From: an uncultured Gammaproteobacteria bacterium
GTDB lineage: Bacteria > Pseudomonadota > Gammaproteobacteria > PS1 > Pseudothioglobaceae
DNA: 64,000 nucleotides
Assembly: GCA_902511025.1 (NCBI GenBank)
Contig: CABXDP010000001.1
Location: forward strand, 1-64,000
Direction of reading: 5' to 3'
How positions within the stretch are numbered: the stretch's first letter is position 1; each line of letters opens with the position of its first letter. A model generated the notes under the pieces. That model searched no databases. It was given only the letters and a program-made list of their open reading frames with translations, and had not been told where the DNA came from. The position numbers and the translations under genes were made by a program. This document shows positions 10,970 to 26,263 of the stretch, one piece after another.

Positions 10970-10997
10970 TTGCGCAATTTATAAAAAAAGATATAAT
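10970..10997 (+). promoter_or_regulatory. Predicted sigma70 promoter near the cobalamin riboswitch
   Basis: TTGCGC (10970-10975), a 16-base spacer and a perfect TATAAT (10992-10997) precede the B12 element. The -10 box overlaps the 5' strand of the proposed P1 stem. If this promoter is used, the transcript would start near 11004 and lack that strand. An alternative -10 (TTATAA, about 10979) would keep P1 intact. A prediction only. Confidence 0.4.
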
Positions 10998-11087
10998 CTG
11001 ATTAAATTTGATGACGGAAGTTGGTGCGATTCCAACGCTGCCCTCGCAACGGTGTTTCTTCTAGATGAGTCCGATACGTATCAGATT
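10995..11087 (+). promoter_or_regulatory. Cobalamin riboswitch, compact form
   Basis: The conserved core reads GGTGCGATTCC...CGCTGCCCTCGCAACGGT, which matches the B12 box. The hairpin GTTGG/CCAAC precedes it and a late GAGTCCGATACG segment follows. A perfect 8-base outer stem (AATCTGAT 10995-11002 with ATCAGATT 11080-11087) closes the element at only 93 bases. This is shorter than the usual 150-220 and lacks long peripheral arms, as in class II/AdoCbl-variant types seen in marine bacteria. It lies directly upstream of the BtuB-like receptor gene. Confidence 0.88.
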
Positions 11088-11117
11088 GTTTTACTTAATA
11101 CTACGATGGGTGGTGAG

Positions 11118-17164: not shown

Positions 17165-18451
17165 ATGAAAGTAGTTGTTCTTGGTGCTGGAATTATCGGC
17201 ACAACATCCGCTTATTTTTTAGCAAAACAGGGCCATGAAGTCACTGTTATTGACCGGCAGGATAGTGTTTCAATGGAAACTAGTCACGCCAATGCAGGCT
17301 GTCTGTCTTACGGATTTACATCGCCTTGGGCTTCTCCAGGACTACCATTTAGTGTTCTCAAGTGGGTCTTAACTGGGCGCTCTCCACTCATCATTAATCC
17401 AAACATGAGTGTTGAGACCATAAAGTTTATATATCGCATCTATAAAAACTGTAATTCACGTAGTTATGAAATCAATAAAAGTCGAATGCTAAGGGTGGCC
17501 AATTACTCTCAGAAAGCACTCTTAGAAATTGAGACAGATTTTGATCTTTATTATGAACAAAAGAAACAAGGCTCTCTTCAACTTTTTTGGGATTCAAAAG
17601 AGATCGAAAAAGTGCAAAAAGATATTGCAATTTTAGATAAATTTAATATTAATTCAAAGATTCTAAGTGCTGAAGAATGCGTCAAGATTGAGCCTGGACT
17701 CCAATACGTTAAAAATAAACTCGCTGGCGGAATCCAATTTATGGATGACTTTACTGGTAATTGCTACTTGTTTTCAACTGAGGTCTATAAAAAATGTGTT
17801 GAAATGGGGGTTAATTTTGAGTTCAATACTGAAATTAAATCCTTACAAATCAGTAATGATAGAATCGCTTCAGTTTCAACGGATAGAGGTGAAATTAAAG
17901 CAGATTGTTATTCAGTATCACTCGGAAGCTACTCAACTAAAATCCTCTCAAAGATTGGCATTGAGATTCCTATATATCCTGTTAAAGGTTATTCAATTAC
18001 GCTGCCCGTCTTATCTAATGAGGATGCTCCTCAGTCTACAATTATGGATGAAAAAAACAAGATTGCCATAACTAGGCTAGGAGACAGAATTAGAGTCGCT
18101 GGTATGGCTCACCTAACTGATTTTGATAAAAACCTGAGAGCTAAATCATTAGATTCGTTGATGAACGGTCTGGACCTATTATTTCCCAAAAGTTATGAGT
18201 CTTCTAAAGAGACGAATTTTTGGACAGGTTTTCGACCTAGCACTCCTGATGGGACTCCCATTATTGGCCCTACTCACTTCAATAACTTGTTTCTTAACAC
18301 GGGTCATGGAACGCTTGGATGGACAATGTCCGCTGGTTCTGGCAAACTGTTAGCTAACCTTGTCTCAGGAATTGATCCTGAAATCTCTACAGAAGGGATT
18401 GACATGAGTCGATACAGATTTTCAAACAAGATGATAAAAAATTATGGCTAG
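17165..18451 (+). CDS. dadA: D-amino acid dehydrogenase (DadA)
   Basis: This FAD-dependent dehydrogenase oxidises D-alanine and other D-amino acids to 2-oxoacids and passes electrons to the respiratory chain. The FAD motif VVVLGAGIIGTTSAYFLA is at the N-terminus, with SHANAGCLSYGFTSPWASPG next to it and the C-terminal box TGFRPSTPDGTPIIGPT...GHGTLGWTMSAGSG. At 428 residues it is full length. It overlaps alr by 8 bases, giving a coupled L-to-D-alanine-to-pyruvate route. Confidence 0.95.
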   Translation: MKVVVLGAGIIGTTSAYFLAKQGHEVTVIDRQDSVSMETSHANAGCLSYGFTSPWASPGLPFSVLKWVLTGRSPLIINPNMSVETIKFIYRIYKNCNSRSYEINKSRMLRVANYSQKALLEIETDFDLYYEQKKQGSLQLFWDSKEIEKVQKDIAILDKFNINSKILSAEECVKIEPGLQYVKNKLAGGIQFMDDFTGNCYLFSTEVYKKCVEMGVNFEFNTEIKSLQISNDRIASVSTDRGEIKADCYSVSLGSYSTKILSKIGIEIPIYPVKGYSITLPVLSNEDAPQSTIMDEKNKIAITRLGDRIRVAGMAHLTDFDKNLRAKSLDSLMNGLDLLFPKSYESSKETNFWTGFRPSTPDGTPIIGPTHFNNLFLNTGHGTLGWTMSAGSGKLLANLVSGIDPEISTEGIDMSRYRFSNKMIKNYG

Positions 18452-23566: not shown

Positions 23567-23731
23567 TTAGGGTTTTGTAAAGGAAATTAAGTCTGAATAG
23601 TCTTTATTGCTGCCTTTGGCACTTAGATACCAATTCATAGCCTTCACAAGTTGCTTTTCATCAATATTGTTTCTTCTGCAATATGATATGGTTGATTTTT
23701 TTAGCGTATTTTTTGTCATTGTTTTTTTCAT
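23567..23731 (-). CDS. Possible small protein, 54 residues
   Basis: A minus-strand ATG frame gives MKKTMTKNTLKKSTISYCRR, then KQLVKAMNWYLSAKGSNKDYSDL. It is basic with a possible amphipathic helix and a faint Sel1-repeat flavour (AMNWYLSAKG). No Shine-Dalgarno is visible. The product-like composition makes a small gene possible, but no family is recognised. It lies just before a GC-rich structured stretch on the same strand, whose transcript it could follow. Confidence 0.3.
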   Translation of the reverse strand: MKKTMTKNTLKKSTISYCRRNNIDEKQLVKAMNWYLSAKGSNKDYSDLISFTKP

Positions 23732-23753
23732 TTTTTAATTGTTAAGTTGCTTT

Positions 23754-23840
23754 GGTTGGCCGGTAGGAGTAACCTGCCAACCAGAGCGGGTACCTCAAGA
23801 GCCAAACGGAGAGAGAATGGCATAGGTATTCGAGGTTCTT
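23754..23840. ncRNA. Candidate structured RNA, GC-rich island
   Basis: In an AT-rich gap, 23754-23782 forms a strong hairpin: GGTTGGC (23754-23760) with GCCAACC (23776-23782) and an inner AGG/CCT. A second arm pairs ACCTC (23792-23796) with GAGGT (23832-23836), with GCC/GGC inside. The raised GC content and nested pairing suggest a structured RNA or leader. The strand is not known, and no match to 6S, 4.5S, tmRNA or a known riboswitch was recognised. Confidence 0.4.
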
Positions 23841-23864
23841 AAAAATTACACTTAAATAATCTAA

Positions 23865-24004
23865 ATATTGTTTTAGGTATTAGAGACTCACAAAATGGTT
23901 ATGTATAATCTAAGCTAAGCATAGAGAACAATAACGCTCTGTTTAATTAGTAACCTAAAGGGGTAGTAGTTACCAAATAAGTCTCTAATACACTAAAACA
24001 ATAT
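23865..24004. repeat. 140-base element with 24/25-base inverted repeat ends
   Basis: The left arm ATATTGTTTTAGGTATTAGA continues GACT (23865-23888). The right arm (23980-24004) is its exact reverse complement apart from one extra base. The 91-base interior has no gene but holds small stems such as GTAAC/GTTAC. No target duplication flanks it. It could be a MITE-like element or a long-stem non-coding RNA. Confidence 0.75.
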
Positions 24005-24057
24005 GCACATGATAAGCTGCCATTTGTGCCGTCAAATGTTTTCTATATGGAGTTTTG

Positions 24058-24073
24058 ATGAAGACTTAATGAA
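24058..24073 (-). promoter_or_regulatory. Candidate CreB-type operator (direct repeat, 11-base period)
   Basis: On the minus strand the sequence reads TTCAT-TAAGTC-TTCAT, which differs from the E. coli cre tag TTCAC-N6-TTCAC only in the last base of each half. It lies 26 bases upstream of a plausible -35 for the creB-like gene. The 11-base direct-repeat spacing is typical of OmpR-family regulators. Chance occurrence in AT-rich DNA cannot be excluded. Confidence 0.4.
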
Positions 24074-24098
24074 GATTCTTTCTTTTATAAAGTTTTGA

Positions 24099-24137: not shown

Positions 24138-24806
24138 ATGCAAACAATTCTGATAGTAGAAGATGATAAAACCATAGCTGAAAGTATCTGCTTTATTCTC
24201 GAAAAAGACTCTTTCAACTGCAAATGGTTTGACAATGGATCCGATGCGATAGAGTTTCATAAAGACAATGAAGTTGATCTTATTTTATTAGATGTTGGGC
24301 TCCCTGACATGAGTGGCTTTGATTTACTCAGAAAAGTTAGAGAAAAATCAAATATTCCAGTGATTATTATCTCTGCAAGAGACGATGAGTCAGATCAAGT
24401 TCTTGGACTAGAGGGTCTGGGTGCGAATGCATATGTCACAAAGCCTTTGAGCCCAAGGCTTGTGGTTGCCCATGTTCGAGCTCAGCTCAGAATGGTTAAG
24501 CCCGAAGTCAAAAGTGGTGACTCAAAATTCAGTATAAATCACGCCATGCAGCGAGTGGTATTTTTAAATCAGGAGCTAACTTTAACCCCTGCAGAATACA
24601 AGATACTTTCACATCTAGTTAAGAATCCAAACAGAGTCCATTCAAGAGAGTATTTAATGAGTATTATTTGGGACAGGCCTCATGGCTCCGATATCAAGAC
24701 CATAAACACTCACATTAAATCAATACGTAAACGCCTTCATGAGTTGGATGAAGATAACGAATATATCGAGACTCATCGAGGGATAGGATACAGCCTTATT
24801 GAATGA
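24138..24806 (+). CDS. OmpR-family response regulator, CreB-like
   Basis: The receiver domain (residues 1-115) has the acidic pocket VEDD, phospho-acceptor D52 in LILLDVGLPDMSG, and Lys in AYVTKPLS. A winged-helix DNA-binding domain follows (LTPAEYKILSHLVKNPNRVH, IKTINTHIKSIRKRL, THRGIGYSL). It overlaps the kinase gene by 4 bases (ATGA). The kinase partner resembles CreC, so CreB is the best guess, which in enterics responds to carbon metabolism. The downstream neighbours are etfBA. Confidence 0.9.
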   Translation: MQTILIVEDDKTIAESICFILEKDSFNCKWFDNGSDAIEFHKDNEVDLILLDVGLPDMSGFDLLRKVREKSNIPVIIISARDDESDQVLGLEGLGANAYVTKPLSPRLVVAHVRAQLRMVKPEVKSGDSKFSINHAMQRVVFLNQELTLTPAEYKILSHLVKNPNRVHSREYLMSIIWDRPHGSDIKTINTHIKSIRKRLHELDEDNEYIETHRGIGYSLIE

Positions 24807-26263
24807 AGCGCTTAAGGCTCAATATTGGTACTAAGTTATTTCTGCTTTACTTTATTGTCAGTTCAAGTCTTTTATGGGTCTTTGCCCAAAGAACAACCTT
24901 TGAGTCTGCAAAATCAGTAATGGTTGAGGTCTCTAGCCTTATGAGTAGAGTTGCCTCTCAGAATAACCATGATGGTGAGATTGATTTAGAAACCTTCGAA
25001 AGCCTTATTGTGAACTATCTTCGTTCACAAAGGAATACCATTGATAAAAACAGTCTACAAAAACTAGAAAATCTAGCAATCTATGTAACTGATAGGGACG
25101 GGCTTCTGGTACTTGACTCAAGAGGACTTACCTTGGGCACAGATATGCGCGACGTTAATGAAGTGGAGTCTGCCCTTAGTGGAGTGACAGACACAACCAA
25201 CATAATTGTTGAGGAGACACGAGGCACTAGAAAAGCAAGAGGCGCCGCGATTGAGTACTTCCTTAAATCAAGATATCTTAATGCTTCTAACCCAATTTAT
25301 GGTGACAATGGTGAAATTTTAGGAGCAGTAGTGGTTGTTGCCCCTCTTATCGATTTAATGGGGGAGAGTTATCTTTTAAGGTTCATCTTTTATATTTTTG
25401 TTATCGCTTTATTATTTGGATTCCTTGGGAGTTATCGAATATCAAGAAACATAAACAGAGTCCAGAAATATACCTCAAATCTCTTTAGTGGCGAGGATGT
25501 ATTGATGCCTGACCTTAATAACCAGTTCAATAAGCTAGCCAGAACCATAAGAGATGCACGTGCAGACGTTGAGCTGAAGGACGATGTAGAGCAGTACATT
25601 GACACCCTTGCACACGAGCTAAGAACACCCATAACAGGAATTCAACTTACAGCAGAAAACCTTTTAACTCCGATGTCAGATCCTCAAAGAAAGCGCTTTG
25701 TTGAGAATATTCTTGAATCCAACAAGCATATGGACCTATTGGTTAATAGGCTTTTAGAGCTATCAAGGATTGAGCGCCGTGAAGCTCTTAAAAATGTAGA
25801 ATCTTTAAACATTAGAGAGATTATTCAAACTGTTTTGAAAGCACCAAGCAGAGAAAAAACGATTAGCGACAAAGATTTAAGGATAGACCTTCAGATTAAT
25901 TCAGGTGCATCTCTAAATGCTGAAAAAATTTTATTGGAACAGGCTATTGGAAACATTATTAATAATGCTCTAGACTTTAGTCCCTCATCTGGAAGAATCA
26001 CAATCAAAGCATCTCAAACCAATGCAGCTATTTCAATCATCGTTTTAGATGATGGACCAGGCATTCCTCCCCAGGTTATCAACAAATTATTTACAAGATT
26101 CTTCTCAGTTTCTAGGCCTGATACTGGTGTCAGGGGAAATGGTCTTGGTTTAAGGTTCGTTCGTAAGATAATGAAACTTCATGGCGGCGAAGTAAGTCTT
26201 CAAAATCGCTTTATACAGCAAGGTGCGGAGGCCAAACTAAGGTTTCCAATAAATATAAAATAA
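24803..26263 (+). CDS. Sensor histidine kinase, CreC-like
   Basis: Two membrane helices (residues about 11-29 and 191-211) bracket a 160-residue periplasmic sensor domain with a cache-like end (LAIYVTDRDGLLVLDSRG, GEILGAVVVVAPL), as in CreC. A HAMP-like linker, the phospho-acceptor H271 in LAHELRTPITGIQLTAENLL, the N box, and the G boxes DDGPGIPP and GNGLGLRFVRKIM follow. At 486 residues it is close to E. coli CreC. The ligand is unknown. Confidence 0.88.
   Translation: MKRLRLNIGTKLFLLYFIVSSSLLWVFAQRTTFESAKSVMVEVSSLMSRVASQNNHDGEIDLETFESLIVNYLRSQRNTIDKNSLQKLENLAIYVTDRDGLLVLDSRGLTLGTDMRDVNEVESALSGVTDTTNIIVEETRGTRKARGAAIEYFLKSRYLNASNPIYGDNGEILGAVVVVAPLIDLMGESYLLRFIFYIFVIALLFGFLGSYRISRNINRVQKYTSNLFSGEDVLMPDLNNQFNKLARTIRDARADVELKDDVEQYIDTLAHELRTPITGIQLTAENLLTPMSDPQRKRFVENILESNKHMDLLVNRLLELSRIERREALKNVESLNIREIIQTVLKAPSREKTISDKDLRIDLQINSGASLNAEKILLEQAIGNIINNALDFSPSSGRITIKASQTNAAISIIVLDDGPGIPPQVINKLFTRFFSVSRPDTGVRGNGLGLRFVRKIMKLHGGEVSLQNRFIQQGAEAKLRFPINIK

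Follow-up and report, generated by a model that had tools for sequence, protein, structure and literature searches.

The creBC-divergent locus

The window (the whole stretch of DNA that was analysed, 64,000 nt) carries two genes resembling creB and creC and, divergent from them on the minus strand, a set of helices and hairpins that we describe here as a predicted noncoding RNA, followed by a small open reading frame (ORF). The features of the locus, in the order of their coordinates, are the following.

23567..23731, minus strand: basic small ORF of 54 aa, conserved, directly downstream of the RNA (YCRRNNIDEKQLVKAMNWYLSA...)
23749..24002, minus strand: the whole predicted noncoding RNA, ~255 nt plus any tail
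23749..23787, minus strand: hairpin P1, with loop UACUCCUA, in the position of a terminator
23792..23836, minus strand: hairpin P2, with outer stem ACCUC/GAGGU, inner stem GCCA/UGGC and loop UUCUCUCUCCGUUU
23865..23888, minus strand: 3' arm of the closing helix, homologous to codons ~35-42 (V-I-A-K-N-N-I) of an SH3-domain gene in other genera
23950..23974, minus strand: hairpin SL2, inside the closing helix, whose loop holds CCCCUUU
23980..24004, minus strand: 5' arm of the closing helix, with the predicted RNA start at ~24002 (ATTGTTTTAG); homologous to the 5' untranslated region (5'UTR) of the SH3-domain gene in other genera
24009..24014, minus strand: predicted -10 hexamer TATCAT of the RNA promoter
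24030..24035, minus strand: predicted -35 hexamer TTGACG with a spacer of 15, or TTTGAC with a spacer of 16
24047..24073, minus strand: three repeats like the CreB tag, at 11-nt spacing, between the divergent RNA and creB promoters
24138..24806, plus strand: CreB-like response regulator (best NCBIfam match CreB, 237 bits, equivalog cut-off of 273 not reached)
24803..26263, plus strand: CreC-like sensor kinase (best NCBIfam match CreC, 300 bits, equivalog cut-off of 356 not reached)

The closing helix comprises 22-25 bp around ~91 nt, and the predicted start of the RNA lies at its foot. Three conserved C-rich loops, CCCCUUU, CUCUCUCC and ACUCC, are invariant in sequence, while the stems around them change and covary; in SL2, for example, the stem appears as GUAAC/GUUAC, GCAAU/AUUGC and GCGAC/GUUGC. 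In most relatives P1 is followed by a U-run, as in a terminator. In the window this U-run is degenerate and a terminator scan scored no terminator, so that transcription may here continue past P1 and make the RNA a leader of the small ORF. The start codon of the small ORF lies ~20-30 nt behind P1, an arrangement found in nearly all loci of the genus (Ca. Pseudothioglobus/SUP05), whereas at loci L028 and L029 and in other genera the ORF stands behind a sortase-like gene instead. The protein encoded by the small ORF matched no Pfam family, DUF1127 included.

Conservation of the inverted repeat

Apart from a single extra base, the two arms (23865-23888 and 23980-24004) are perfect reverse complements, and 91 bases lie between them. 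Folding of a 180-nt stretch gave -43.4 kcal/mol, compared to -27.7 ± 3.6 for shuffled sequences (z -4.3), and a 271-nt minus-strand stretch that takes in the flanking hairpins gave -83.4, compared to -49.2 ± 4.3 (z -8.0). Short inverted repeats are common enough in this AT-rich window, with 28 inverted pairs of 11-mers no more than 300 nt apart against 2-14 after shuffling; what is unusual is that two successive 12-mers match exactly and in register. That the inverted repeat is real is shown decisively by its conservation in alignments: of the 22 genus sequences aligned, 21 retain the long helix, as do most loci of other genera, and it has been lost in L030. The sequence-only reading had described a 140-base element with a near-perfect inverted repeat and no gene between the arms. 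The repeat is borne out by the arm sequences, the fold and the helix kept across relatives, as are the gene-free 91 bases, where the window's clade holds no conserved ORF. The extent of the element stood only in part: the arms are real, but 140 bases span only about half of a larger RNA object.

Strand and covariation of the stems

Read on the minus strand, the stems of 18 aligned sequences contain 90 G-U cells and 1 A-C cell. As an A-C on the minus strand is a G-U on the plus strand, this ratio of 90:1 indicates that the selected RNA is the minus strand, directed away from creB. A plus-strand RNA with GGA loops, similar to CsrB, was also considered and was excluded by the same asymmetry.

Compensatory changes were found in both structured parts of the RNA. 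In an alignment of the genus with other genera, 17 of the 26 pairs of P2/P1 changed on both sides, giving 86 such cells compared to 26.3 ± 5.6 in shuffles, and 89.9% of the cells were paired, a share that fell to 21-47% when one side was slid. For the long helix, changes on both sides affected 7 of 21 pairs (25 cells compared to 11.6 in shuffles), with 93.4% of cells paired against 36-55% after sliding; because the helix is nearly invariant within the genus, this covariation comes mainly from other genera and the deepest genus branches.

These data bear on the proposal, made from the sequence alone, of a long-hairpin regulatory RNA in the leader of the CreB-like gene. The position upstream of creB and a plus-strand match resembling TATAAT within the loop would suit a plus-strand leader of this kind, but the G-U/A-C asymmetry excludes plus-strand folding as the selected structure, and the operator and the creB promoter stand between the element and creB; we therefore consider such a leader highly improbable. 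What holds of the proposal is the kind of molecule, an RNA with compensatory stem changes, and what falls is its assignment to creB, the RNA being on the opposite strand and heading away from that gene.

A predicted promoter and CreB-tag-like repeats

The -35 region of the predicted RNA promoter is kept as CATTTGAC in most relatives; the promoter, with its spacer of 15-16 nt, was not picked up by a consensus promoter scan. The repeats between the two divergent promoters have the form TTCAT-N6-TTCAT-N6-TCCAT in the window and TTCAC-N6-TTCAC-N6-TTCAC in several relatives, and the published cre/blr tag is TTCAC-N6-TTCAC (PMC4689548). A single direct-repeat set, in window 24039-24075, is common to the creB-like gene and the RNA promoter. 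On this sequence evidence, the CreB-like regulator, encoded by the divergent neighbour of the RNA, is probably the controller of the RNA, and given that the repeat set is shared, it probably controls its own operon as well. The known members of the CreBC regulon are protein genes, e.g., creD. We know of no CreB-linked structured RNA, and a full-text literature search for a CreB-linked small RNA gave nothing relevant, with results dominated by eukaryotic CREB.

Copy number, synteny and distribution

The element is present in one copy in its own genome, and no copies elsewhere were found among the matches in 58 related genomes. Throughout the genus its position is fixed between bcp and the creBC-like genes, as a search of 58 relatives showed. 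A model of the P2/P1 hairpins, R1, matched 11 of the 11 genus genomes with a completeness of at least 90%; where a strong R1 match was lacking in the genus, the genome was incomplete or a contig ended at the locus. The terminal inverted repeats and the 140-bp size had led to the suggestion of a MITE or other mobile element served by a transposase in trans, and the search for second copies had been put forward as the way to tell such an element from an RNA. That search returned one conserved copy with compensatory changes, as an RNA predicts. Because the element is single-copy at the same site in every genus genome at least 90% complete, it is not a MITE; the lack of empty sites, vertical descent across genera and arms derived from an ancestral gene, one from its 5'UTR and the other from its coding sequence (see below), likewise speak against mobility, which we regard as scarcely credible in any form.

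A second model, R2, gave no match under strict filters in the other 368 genomes sampled from the class, of which 365 lie outside the family. Some family members were missed by R1 in the same kind of search and later found by hand, so weak distant copies may have escaped too. By these searches the RNA appears confined to Thioglobaceae. In Rfam, no family scored above its gathering threshold, and permissive thresholds applied to several relatives were likewise empty. The shape of the RNA had prompted a comparison with 6S RNA (RF00013), which gave no covariance-model match here and lies elsewhere in relatives. At a different place in the window, a cobalamin riboswitch was found at 10982-11099 on the plus strand (Rfam RF00174, 47.7 bits).

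Weak model matches elsewhere in far-group genomes proved to be a different hairpin family and not copies of the RNA. A hairpin resembling P1, AGCTGGYGGC-(A)CTTCTCC-TGCCRCCAGC, is found repeatedly in genomes from deep branches of the genus and has no Rfam match. At L096 (~1000-1110), L098 (two places), L102 and L103 it sits within a longer conserved leader before unrelated genes, which by eye are serA-like, a glycoside hydrolase of family 1 and an ANTAR-type regulator, and at L097, L099 and L100 it lies behind a sugar ABC binding-protein gene. From its sequence and placement, this hairpin is possibly a second, dispersed leader RNA family.

Ancestry of the RNA in an SH3-domain gene

In other genera of Thioglobaceae, where the P2/P1 hairpins were found by both R1 and R2, the locus consists of an intact SH3-domain gene, P2/P1 and a sortase-like gene, with creB divergent; the same promoter, long-range helix and P2/P1 thus surround a protein gene. 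Its product is a coiled-coil, membrane-anchored protein (SH3_and_anchor, TIGR04211, 75 bits against a cut-off of 65). The class GN sortase-like protein of these genera lacks the catalytic Cys (95 bits against a cut-off of 158), and genes further downstream encode a small-ORF homologue and, in the loci checked for it, a marine sortase target protein. At L028, L029 and L089-L095 a class GN sortase-like protein adjoins the RNA, with the catalytic Cys of the TLxTC type replaced (LVTPWPF, LVSAWPF). Several such genomes also encode, farther along, a full-length class GN sortase besides the Cys-less one.

The mRNA of the SH3-domain gene begins with the same ATTGTTTTTAG, and its first 22 nt pair with codons ~35-42 at -16.7 to -22.2 kcal/mol, compared to about -10 in shuffles; the pairing energy was below that of 99-100% of shuffles in the seven of seven loci examined first, and pairing of the 5' end was also clear in most further loci. 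At the 3' arm, significant DNA homology connects the genus RNA with the SH3 gene (26 nt, 96%, E 2e-7; 52 nt, 79%, E 6e-8). Between the two states lies a series of losses, from the full gene through relic ORFs of 50-76 aa (L024-L026, L028-L031) to no ORF; in deep genus branches, for example, a relic reads MRQTLLLFTNASS...VITIPMRANVLETKNNTIE, compared to VKIPMRADDVIAKNNIID. In the window's clade the start codon of the former SH3 gene is also gone, and genus genomes retain only another, unlinked SH3 paralogue. The possibility that the element encodes a protein was considered and rejected: the window's clade keeps no ORF, and the best relic ORF, used as a protein query, retrieved only itself.

Since this sequence forms the beginning of a functional protein gene in relatives, the locus looks like a gene that gave up its protein and kept its RNA. 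By sequence comparison, the 140-base element is a remnant of the 5' region of a protein-coding gene and has survived as an RNA structure. Selection on the RNA is not explained by the flanking ancestral protein genes, because the RNA persists where both are gone.

Proposed function and rival explanations

We put at about 60% the probability that the locus encodes, divergent from creBC on the minus strand, a noncoding RNA of ~255 nt that is closed by the repeat helix, controlled by CreB, descended from the SH3 mRNA and active in trans through its C-rich loops. The sequence comparisons show the strand, structure, conservation and ancestry of the RNA and the operator-like repeats, whereas its transcription, its control by CreB and its action in trans are inferred. 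The ancestor was the mRNA of a TIGR04211-type SH3 membrane-protein gene, the first gene of a sortase operon adjacent to creB. Ca. Pseudothioglobus lost the SH3 protein stepwise and retained the promoter, the helix from the 5'UTR to codons 35-42 and both of the hairpins that had followed the gene. Activity of the CreBC-like system would lead to synthesis of the RNA; the long helix would fold and protect its 5' end, and P1 would end it, although some transcripts would read through into the small ORF. The three C-rich loops might then bind target mRNAs at purine-rich ribosome-binding regions, in the manner of LhrC. The proposition that an SH3 mRNA turned into a regulatory RNA, its protein lost in one genus and its promoter, helix and C-loop hairpins selected as a CreB-controlled, trans-acting RNA, seems to us evenly balanced.

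A search for targets by loop complementarity gave total matches not above those of a reversed-pattern control. In a post hoc match, the P2 loop has 13-14 nt of complementarity (-24 kcal/mol) to the 5'UTR of an ammonium-transporter-like (amt-like) gene in the genome of the window and its closest relatives; the gene was recognised by eye on the basis of its N-terminus. The site (G000 contig C2, ~17960-18004, minus strand; L158, L161) carries AAAACGGAGAGAGAT ~25-40 nt before the start codon, TTG, and apart from the gene's own Shine-Dalgarno sequence; its 8-nt core is present in 12 of 13 of the near clade and absent from deeper branches. This complementarity makes the amt-like 5'UTR a candidate target of the P2 loop, as a lead only.

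The main rival to a trans-acting RNA is a cis-acting leader, in which the structure would be the long 5'UTR of the small ORF and P1 an attenuator or translation-control hairpin, with no targets in trans. Its best case is the clade of the window, in which decay of the terminator U-run makes one transcript likely, and it agrees with the conservation of the small ORF directly behind P1 in nearly all genus loci. However, the junction between RNA and ORF is not constant, as a sortase-like gene intervenes in other genera and at L028/L029. The C-rich loops, which are conserved best of all, have no obvious partner in cis, and no mutually exclusive antiterminator was found. We judge this explanation unlikely, yet worth carrying beside the trans-acting one. 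Less probable still, and in our view doubtful, is a passive stabiliser or terminator, with the 5' helix and P2/P1 guarding or ending the transcript and the loops having no pairing role. A stem-loop at the 5' end and hairpins behind an ORF, as in other genera, are indeed where stability elements are expected, but the loops are invariant while the stems covary, and the RNA outlives the protein whose message it would have protected.

The locus suggests that the CreBC system has an RNA arm, and it adds a conserved RNA to a lineage that is abundant in the ocean, has very small genomes and is little known for riboregulation. Most bacterial small RNAs change too fast for their origin to be traced, and the traceable origin of this RNA from an mRNA is unusual. 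Its steps can be read in living relatives, as intact gene, relic ORF and no ORF, with the RNA structure kept throughout; the birth of a small RNA from an mRNA by protein loss thereby becomes directly testable.

Comparison with known systems

With respect to the genes around it, the locus touches two described systems. The class GN sortase/marine sortase target system (TIGR03784, TIGR03788) is represented in the ancestral operon of other genera, which holds these genes beside the RNA, whereas the window locus is without any sortase gene. The likeness to the CreBC (BlrAB) regulon lies in the direct repeats similar to TTCAC-N6-TTCAC upstream of the RNA promoter (PMC4689548) and in CreB and CreC as the best NCBIfam matches of the neighbouring genes.

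As for the RNA, loops of the CCUCCUCC type in other Thioglobaceae genera resemble the motif of the CcsR/cuckoo family. These RNAs share with the present locus their C-rich loops and the linkage to a small conserved protein; in alphaproteobacteria, the 71-aa DUF1127 RNA-binding protein CcaF1 is co-transcribed with CcsR1-4 (PMC10253847). Here, in contrast, there is a single RNA with a different regulator and no Rfam match, and the small protein has no Pfam or DUF1127 match and follows the RNA rather than preceding it. That the small ORF could encode an RNA-binding partner, by analogy with CcsR, is speculation.

The LhrC1-5 RNAs of Listeria monocytogenes, which are under envelope-stress control by the two-component system LisRK, pair with ribosome-binding regions through three CU-rich sites, of which one lies in the loop of the terminator (PMC4132741). 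The RNA predicted here likewise has three C-rich loops, one of them in P1, and lies beside two-component genes. There is no homology between the two; LhrC is shorter, multicopy and Gram-positive, and it differs from the present RNA in lacking the long-range closing helix and the descent from an mRNA. By analogy, the RNA would resemble the two-component-controlled small RNAs with C-rich loops in its working, and it would stand outside any described family.
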